From an uncultured Lachnospiraceae bacterium (GTDB lineage Bacteria > Bacillota > Clostridia > Lachnospirales > Lachnospiraceae): a stretch of 64,000 nucleotides of DNA. The stretch lies in NCBI GenBank assembly GCA_947589055.1, contig CANPZL010000009.1:1-64000 (forward strand), in the 5' to 3' direction. A model generated the notes under the pieces. That model had not been told where the DNA came from, did no database searches, and was given only the letters and a program-made list of their open reading frames with translations. Position 1 is the first letter of the stretch. Every line of letters begins with the position of its first letter. The translations under genes and the position numbers were made by a program. This document shows positions 62,452 to 64,000 of this stretch, piece after piece.

Positions 62452-62554
62452 AGGAAACCGCTTTTTTCTTTTAATATATGTAGAAAGAAAAAAGAAATGA
62501 TAGAATTATCTTAAAAAAATAAATAAAAAAATATTAAAATCCAAAGGAAAGACT

Positions 62555-62582
62555 TTAACAAAAGAAAAAACTATGTTACAAT
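62555..62582 (+). promoter_or_regulatory. Probable promoter reading toward tRNA-Gly
   Basis: TTAACA (62555-62560), 16 nt, TACAAT (62577-62582). It is the only promoter-like site between the GH18 gene and the tRNA. Confidence 0.5.
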
Positions 62583-62606
62583 GTCCACGTAAGCAATGAG
62601 CTGTGC

Positions 62607-62671
62607 GTAATCAGAAAAAAGCCAGCTTGTGTTGTGCTTGCACATAAAGAAACTGGCTTTTTTCTGATTAC
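62607..62671. terminator. Long hairpin with exact 19-bp stem, terminator-like on both strands
   Basis: Bases 62607-62625 and 62653-62671 are exact reverse complements (arm contains AGAAAAAAGCCAG). The embedded A and T runs give a terminator shape in both directions. The 27-nt loop has a small TGTG/CACA hairpin. Confidence 0.8.
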
Positions 62672-62673
62672 AT

Positions 62674-62876
62674 AGGGCGAAAGCCCGTGAGCGAAAAACG
62701 AAGTTTTGCGCTGCACAGGGAAAGCAAAGGGCGAAAGCCCGTGAGCGAAAAACGAAGTTTTGCGCTGCACAGGGAAAGCAAAGGGCGAAAGCCCGTGAGC
62801 GAAAAACGAAGTTTTGCGCTGCACAGAGAAAGCAAAGGGCGAAAGCCCGTGAGCGAAAAACGAAGTTTTGCGCTGC
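62674..62876. repeat. Tandem array, 54-bp unit, about 3.8 copies
   Basis: Units begin at 62674, 62728, 62782 and 62836 (last one 41 bp). They are almost identical; one base differs in the third copy. Each unit holds GGGCGAAAGCCC (a 4-bp stem with a GAAA loop) and AAAACGAAGTTTT. The length is a multiple of three, so both strands stay open as 18-residue repeats, but no ribosome site or known domain supports a protein. Confidence 0.92.
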
Positions 62877-62884
62877 GTACTTAT

Positions 62885-62955
62885 GCAGATATAGTTCATC
62901 GGTAGAACGCTAGCTTCCCAAGCTGGAGAGGCGGGTTCGATTCCCGTTATCTGCT
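62885..62955 (+). tRNA. tRNA-Gly (anticodon CCC)
   Basis: The acceptor GCAGATA (62885-62891) pairs with TATCTGC (62948-62954), and the discriminator is T. The D-arm is GTTC...GAAC. The anticodon loop TTCCCAA is on stem CTAGC/GCTGG, and the T-arm holds GGTTCGATTCC. Anticodon CCC reads GGG (Gly). CCA is not encoded. The 54-bp repeat array ends 8 bases before its 5' end. Confidence 0.95.
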
Positions 62956-62971: not shown

Positions 62972-63000
62972 TTGACATCTATTTTCTGTAAGCGTATACT
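62972..63000 (+). promoter_or_regulatory. Sigma-A promoter of the trp leader
   Basis: TTGACA (62972-62977), 17 nt, TATACT (62995-63000). Confidence 0.85.
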
Positions 63001-63006
63001 TGCTAA

Positions 63007-63301
63007 CAGAAAACGAATACACCAATGAACAAGAAGAGTAGGCATGCCCGAAGTGCAAAGAGAATCGTAGGCGGTGAGAGTACGGTGATGGAAGGTTTGC
63101 TGAATGGACTTGGGAGGGCGGCTTGAAATCCGGCAAAGCAGAGAGCGATCTGTGAAGAGGAGAGTAGATGCCGACGGGGTTCCTGCCGTTATCAGAAGGA
63201 GACATATTTCAGTATGTTAGAGTGGGTATGAATATACCAATTTGGGTGGTACCGCAGAAGTTTAGCTTTTGTCCCTGGGAACAGTGGCAGAGGCTTTTTT
63301 A
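63007..63301 (+). ncRNA. T-box riboswitch, tryptophan specifier (TGG)
   Basis: The leader has stem I elements AGAGAATCG and GGTGAGAG, the specifier pattern GAA-TGG-ACTTGGGAGG near 63100, and the antiterminator box TTGGGTGGTACCGC (about 63241-63254). The terminator pairs AGCTTTTGTC (63264-63273) with GGCAGAGGCT (63286-63295), followed by TTTTT. The specifier reads Trp, so shortage of charged tRNA-Trp should switch on trpD and following genes. Confidence 0.92.
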
Positions 63302-63364: not shown

Positions 63365-64000
63365 ATGATTAAGGAAGCGATCAACAAATTAGTCAACAAC
63401 GAGGATTTATCTTATGACATGGCAAAGGAAGTCATGAATGAGATCATGAGCGGTGAGGCCAGTCAGGTCCATATGGGAGCCTATTTAACTGCCCTCCGTA
63501 TGAAAGGGGAAACCATTGAGGAGATTACGGCAAGCGCAGAAGGGATGCGGGAGCATTGTGTACGCCTGCTGCATGATATGGACGTACTGGAAATCGTAGG
63601 AACCGGCGGTGATGAAGCGAATTCCTTCAATATCTCCACTGCATCTTCCATTGTTGTTTCCGCTTACGGGATTCCGGTAGCAAAGCATGGTAACCGCAGC
63701 GTATCCAGTAAATGCGGTGCGGCAGATGTTTTGGAGGCATTGGGCGTTAAGATCACCATCAGTCCGGCGGAAAGCGCACAGGTGTTAAAGGAGATCGGGC
63801 TTTGCTTCATGTTTGCACAGACCTATCATAATGCAATGCGGTTTGTAGCACCGGTTCGTAAGGAAATCGGAATCCGGACCATTTTCAATATTTTAGGGCC
63901 GCTGGGAAATCCTGCCGGCGCCAGCTATCAGCTTCTGGGGGTTTATGATGAAGCATTAGTAGAACCTTTGGCAAAGGTGCTGGTAAATCTTGGAGTAAAA
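63365..64000 (+). CDS. trpD: Anthranilate phosphoribosyltransferase, 3' end outside window
   Basis: The frame starts at ATG 63365 behind AAAGGAGA and is open to the window end (212 codons). The family motifs are [52 protein letters not shown] (PRPP and anthranilate sites), [36 protein letters not shown]. It links anthranilate to PRPP in tryptophan synthesis. It is the first gene after the Trp T-box; trpE and trpG are not upstream of it. Confidence 0.95.

Follow-up and report, generated by a model that had tools for sequence, protein, structure and literature searches.

The tRNA-Gly(CCC) locus

The window (the whole 64,000-nucleotide stretch analysed here, from an uncultured Lachnospiraceae bacterium) contains a gene for tRNA-Gly(CCC), located by tRNA search at 62885..62955 on the + strand. 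The tRNA-Gly query matches twice in this genome (G000), once with anticodon CCC and once with anticodon TCC, and the copy in the window is the sole tRNA-Gly(CCC) that it finds. Downstream of the tRNA gene the window also contains a T-box leader at 63016-63279 (Rfam RF00230), which scores 95.4 bits against a cut-off of 93. A strong promoter-like site (62972-63000) precedes this leader, and an ORF at 63365, which we take by eye to be trpD-like, follows it.

Upstream of the tRNA gene, a promoter scan, for which 1.9 sites are expected by chance, detects a promoter-like site at 62555..62582 on the + strand (TTAACA-16-TACAAT, with TG before the −10 element; 10/12) and a second, weaker site at 62511-62540 (9/12). 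A preliminary description of this DNA had named the former as the only such site; the site itself is confirmed, but it is not the only one.

Directly behind the site at 62555..62582, and on the + strand throughout, lies a structured element. Its conserved 5' end, CCACGTAAGCAATGAG, occupies 62585..62600 (family consensus, YCACGWAAGCAATGAGC; the match to our covariance model, R1, begins at 62587), and spacing places a likely transcription start near 62587. There follow the 5' strand of a helix, P1 (CTGTGC, 62601..62606; predicted fold and family covariation); a long hairpin, P2, with apical GTGCTTGCAC (62607..62671; fold and covariation), in which the longest perfect stem is 19 bp (62607-62625 with 62653-62671); an invariant core, CATAGGGCGAAAGCCCGTGA, recovered by core motif search at 62671..62690 and including hairpin P3 (62675-62686); a variable hairpin, P4 (62691..62712; predicted fold); and the 3' strand of P1 (GCACAG, 62713..62718; sequence and predicted fold). 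One unit, 62587-62720, folds at −57.3 kcal/mol, as compared to −34.4 ± 3.4 kcal/mol for dinucleotide shuffles (z = −6.8), and its predicted fold is a closed four-helix structure in which P1 encloses P2, P3, and P4.

From 62674 to 62876 (+ strand), the sequence forms a tandem array of 3.8 × 54 bp (99% matches, score 399). The unit consists of P3, P4, the P1 3' strand, and a linker, with the final unit lacking the P1 strand; P3 cores begin at 62674, 62728, 62782, and 62836, and further copies of the P1 3' strand occur at 62767-62772 and 62821-62826, such that a single P1 5' strand is accompanied by three complete 3' strands. The core motif has four matches in the window (≤3 mismatches), as compared to zero expected. 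The array ends 8 bases short of the mature 5' end of the tRNA. The preliminary description had reported a perfect 19-bp hairpin between promoter and tRNA, about four 54-bp repeats, and an 8-base gap, and each of these observations holds. Its further description of the hairpin as terminator-like is not supported: the T-run lies inside the stem, paired to an A-run, and an intrinsic terminator scan of the window, which takes loops of 3-8 only, does not report the hairpin.

A family of modular structured repeats

The preliminary description had proposed a genome search for the same hairpin-plus-repeat unit elsewhere, and such copies are found. DNA matching identifies two close copies in the same genome, one (L002) before a response-regulator gene and one (L003) between two genes, and a model search of the genome yields 10 matches in total. 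Among relatives, blastn detects the element in 12/145 genomes, the genome of the window included; a core pattern detects it in 29/397 family genomes, with no matches for a reversed control pattern; and R1 matches 46/107 related genomes at E ≤ 0.01, a count in which weak matches (e.g., G036, best E 1e-5) may represent other long hairpins. A core scan of genome_contigs returns at least 117 stretches, and the titles among the 80 matches listed are those of Lachnospiraceae, of other Clostridia (Lacrimispora, Hungatella, Enterocloster, Anaerotignum), or unspecific. An exact-match search of viral_contigs for the core returns no matches, and we reject a phage origin on this basis. No family in Rfam 15 matches the element at its cut-off, and we found no description of the repeat in the literature searched, which was available in part and mostly from outside subscription journals. 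The element is one of a family of structured, modular Lachnospiraceae repeats that appears not to have been described.

We compiled a set of 130 copies, each having the 5' end and the core; the set includes related copies and some orthologous loci, and the counts below therefore describe non-independent events. Since the copies were found largely via the core, invariance of the core is by construction. The order of parts in the family is a host −10 box, the conserved 5' end, P2, P3 in the core, the variable P4, and finally the strand pairing with the element's start to close P1. In one subfamily (L326-L334, in G001, G004, and G007), the sequence upstream is AAATTATGGTTTGC-like rather than a TATAAT box, and the shared 3' region extends further. 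Another element, related to the family but separate from it, has the ends AATTCTGCTGTGC ... GCACAGCAGAATT and lies behind the response-regulator gene in G005 and G004 (L274, L275); it has two to three partial copies in G005, and its site is uninterrupted in the genome of the window.

The sequence of P2 varies freely among copies yet remains self-complementary. The 7-base P1 arm, GCNGTGC, has an exact downstream complement in 93/130 copies, and complements follow arm class (GCAGTGC, 54/75; GCCGTGC, 21/29; GCCATGC, 10/13), with eight cross-class matches; a 6-base arm has its complement downstream in 90/113 copies and upstream in 8/124. From the 93 arm-bearing copies, 70 non-redundant copies were picked and 58 were aligned. 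RNAalifold predicts 27 pairs from the 58-copy alignment, of which 21 show two-sided changes. Pairs in P2, which was left free in the covariation test, show up to four standard pair types, and many show all four Watson-Crick types; P3 was fixed by the search, and support for P1 in this alignment is inflated, members having been chosen by the P1 arm. We conclude that P1 and P2 covary strongly.

Mismatches in P2, counted in 116/130 copies after removal of the others for length or redundancy, are strongly asymmetric: GA and AG total 211, as compared to 2 for CT and TC, and GU totals 56, as compared to 32 for AC. The asymmetry indicates that folding takes place in the sense strand, whether as RNA or as single-stranded DNA. 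P2 is terminator-like in 22/130 copies, its 3' strand there having a GC-rich stretch and then a T-run. On this proportion we reject the terminator reading as a family trait, and obligatory read-through of a terminator is not supported as a property of the family.

The 54-bp repeat results from duplication of the P3-P4-P1' module, and the array is a duplicated 3' module. At least two cores are present in 22/113 copies, and at least two P1 3' strands in 29/113. The window copy has four cores, L002 has five at 53-55 bp, and L073 has six at 72 bp; the additional units would offer the lone P1 5' strand several candidate partners. We considered a protein-coding repeat, since the 54-bp unit keeps the frame open, but rejected it because the L002 array includes units spaced 53 and 55 bp apart and because base pairing is the conserved trait.

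Placement behind −10 boxes and at gene ends

In gut-type Clostridia, most copies of the element occupy a fixed position relative to promoter-like sequence. A TATAAT box with no more than one mismatch lies within 25 bases upstream of 107/128 copies, as compared to 21/128 for a control stretch, and a TATAAT-like box lies at one exact offset in 91/128 copies, where 40 other offsets average 1.7 copies and none exceeds 6. Upstream, the family consensus shows a weak TTG in the −35 position, and TRTGGTATAATGTYCACGWAAGCAATGAGC. The literature searched, in the part available, yielded no precedent for such a fixed seat behind −10 boxes. Targeting and selection after random insertion would both account for this seat. 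Given the same placement in 107/128 family members, we read the site at 62555..62582 as the tRNA gene's own putative promoter, with the element inserted just behind it. The remaining 21/128 copies have no −10 box, and their shared sequence begins after the box position. Ten of these 21 sit where an upstream reading frame ends, and in promoterless copies L012, L064, L184, L076, L081, and L185 the conserved 5' end of the element provides the stop codon of the upstream frame.

A simple ORF caller calls a downstream gene for 112/130 copies, and the gene is co-oriented with the element in 94/112, mostly starting 37-240 nt from the core. The downstream proteins, read for 92/130 copies, are of many kinds, and a ribosome-binding-like motif is present in the listed 92. 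By eye, from translations, we take the downstream genes to include pyrG-, trpS-, lepA-, folE-, adk-, and murA-like genes, transporters, regulators, and one tRNA. ARAGORN, run on 122 other loci (L002 and L003 included), places the element before a tRNA in none, and we reject the idea of a tRNA-linked element. One copy (L335, G005:C401) lies directly behind a tRNA-Gly gene, the tRNA having been recognised by eye.

Comparison with relatives indicates that the element is absent from corresponding sites. In this genome, the promoter at L002 is TAGACT-17-TAAAAT, with the element immediately behind it; G004, G005, G001, and G007 have the corresponding promoter, with the same spacing and with no such element behind it; the promoter is thus common to five species, and the element lies directly behind it only in this genome. 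L002 is the one locus at which the promoter can be shown to predate the element. At the L003 locus, six congeners (G001, G002, G004, G005, G006, and G007) are without the element, and in G006 the locus is merely a short gap between two genes. A tRNA-Gly(CCC) gene is found in six of seven other congeners, with the element upstream in 0/6; in G006, which has the neighbouring LysM gene in common with the window, the promoter lies 98 bases from that gene, as compared to 106 bases here, and the two promoters are alike in position, with sequence likeness that is not clear. The results at L002, L003, and tRNA-Gly(CCC) establish presence/absence polymorphism among related genomes.

Junctions at the compared sites are not base-exact, since the compared congeners are approximately 65-84% identical over the flanks, and no target duplication is readable there; nor was an excision product identified. 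A candidate empty site, G037/G409, was rejected, being a remnant (deletion) with both ends kept. The left end can be approached in a different manner: 74 pairs of copies with near-identical bodies (≥85%) have unrelated upstream DNA, and in these pairs identity is 0.65-0.77 in the −10 box and falls to background, approximately 0.25, upstream of about −21, a pattern that fits an element with its left end at the expected transcription start. The P1 strands constitute inverted repeats near both element ends.

These results separate two suggestions of the preliminary description. The suggestion of an insertion element is supported, with copies elsewhere in the genome and in other genera and with relatives that have no copy at the compared sites. 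The suggestion of a way to control the tRNA is not: the element precedes a tRNA at 0/122 other loci, and the downstream genes are unrelated. Relatives in which the array has no link to the tRNA had been named beforehand as one observation that would refute the proposal, and relatives and other copies show the element unlinked to the tRNA.

Nature and possible consequences of the element

Among the systems compared, the element appears to work most like BOX of S. pneumoniae, which is described (PMC3049150) as a dispersed boxA-boxB(n)-boxC repeat, in some cases co-transcribed with genes, having a folded RNA, presumed to be a non-autonomous mobile element, and having reported terminal inverted repeats and target duplications. 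By description, both are short, dispersed, modular folded repeats with fixed ends and middle modules variable in number, the family likewise being probably transcribed, and the family has the variable number of one internal module that characterises BOX, as given by its multiple cores. The differences from BOX are that the family's repeated module takes in the closing helix's 3' strand and that its copies lie at a fixed distance behind −10 boxes. Clostridiales-1 RNA (RF01699) resembles the element in host group, in having many copies per genome, and in having a long variable hairpin with a GCTTGC tip and an outer closing helix, but the core and other helices of the element differ; the window copy and L002 score 32.9 and 33 bits against a cut-off of 48, R1 scores at most 20.1 bits on 26 Clostridiales-1 loci, and we reject membership. 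Clostridiales-1 RNA itself is present in 49/145 relatives, with at least 18 matches in several, and has no match in this genome at that threshold. Correia elements and promoter-bearing MITEs are small mobile repeats near gene starts that affect expression (PMC10969869); the family likewise comprises small, apparently mobile repeats close to gene starts, but at the one testable locus, L002, the promoter appears to be the host's. The 5' leaders of aprE and ermC of B. subtilis, which stabilise mRNAs (PMC3997798), resemble the element in that the very 5' end of the mRNA is structured, a likeness that bears on function by analogy only; those leaders belong to single genes, whereas the family consists of dispersed repeats.

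We consider it probable that the feature in the window is a BOX-like modular mobile repeat, inserted at the transcription start of the tRNA gene and co-transcribed with it as a folded leader. It has a fold common to more than 100 other copies; these are placed after −10 boxes or where genes end, mostly co-oriented with the next gene, and the relatives compared are without these copies. A reading in which an extended −10 promoter is instead part of the element's own 5' end, so that the element makes promoters in the manner of Correia elements rather than landing behind them, would account for the presence of TRTGGTATAATG in copies whose further-upstream DNA is unrelated, with identity dropping off only beyond −21. 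We regard this reading as unlikely, but as deserving some weight: four element-free congeners have the same −35/−10 arrangement and spacing at L002, and the shared sequence of 21/128 copies starts after the box position. That the element is a cis-regulatory leader, riboswitch- or attenuator-like, in which a signal switches P1/P1' pairing and thereby controls the downstream gene, is consistent with a conserved fold with an invariant core in a 5' leader position, with the alternative P1 partners offered by arrays, and with the minority of P2 hairpins that are terminator-like (22/130). It is nevertheless distinctly unlikely, since the downstream proteins of the 92/130 copies are unrelated and share no common theme or pathway, as would be looked for in a riboswitch, since P2 is mostly not terminator-like, and since relatives manage without the element.

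Two other readings are more improbable still. If the copies were small-RNA genes, each with a promoter of its own and a mere bystander gene downstream, the promoter-like box in most copies, the strong fold, and the distant likeness, in the GCTTGC hairpin, to sRNA family Clostridiales-1 would be explained; against this reading are the co-orientation of 94/112 downstream genes, most of which start no more than 240 nt from the core, the ribosome-binding-like motif in the 92/130 listed, and the promoterless copies at gene ends. Highly doubtful, too, is an IS200/IS605-type single-strand element (REP/PATE-like) moved by a Y1 transposase, despite sense-strand-specific hairpins, an AT-rich left flank, and the lack of a visible target duplication at the compared sites. 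Our search for an autonomous partner covered Y1 transposases; three genomes with copies of the element (this genome, G005, and G020) have no Y1_Tnp match, nine Y1 loci of other genomes have no match to the element model around them, and a Y1 link was not found.

According to the reading as a BOX-like mobile leader, the element would spread non-autonomously and settle around +1 of promoters already in place, and the window copy would have landed between the −10 box and tRNA-Gly(CCC). It is plausible, from the fit to the family seat behind −10 boxes, that the promoter at 62555-62582 drives the tRNA through a structured leader of approximately 300 bases; RNA polymerase starting at approximately 62587 would then make a precursor with a folded leader of approximately 300 nt. 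RNase P, which generates the mature 5' ends of tRNAs by cleaving their precursors, would remove the leader, such that the tRNA is probably still made. Before protein genes, the element would act as a transferable folded 5' end that disrupts neither promoter nor ribosome-binding site; such a 5' end may protect or insulate the mRNA and, by analogy with the B. subtilis leaders, could lengthen its life. A more specific proposal, which we advance tentatively and think rather unlikely as a whole, is that the element inserts in sense either directly behind the −10 box, where RNA polymerase melts the DNA, or at the ends of genes, so becoming the folded 5' end of host transcripts without harm to promoter or ribosome-binding site, and that its own RNA might be the means by which it moves, given that the left end falls on the base expected to be transcribed first.

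With these repeats, a bacterial family common in the gut gains a structured, apparently mobile leader family absent from Rfam 15, and a shared fold is predicted at the start of many of its housekeeping transcripts. The constant seat behind −10 boxes raises the question whether the element finds promoters or whether only promoter-proximal copies survive.
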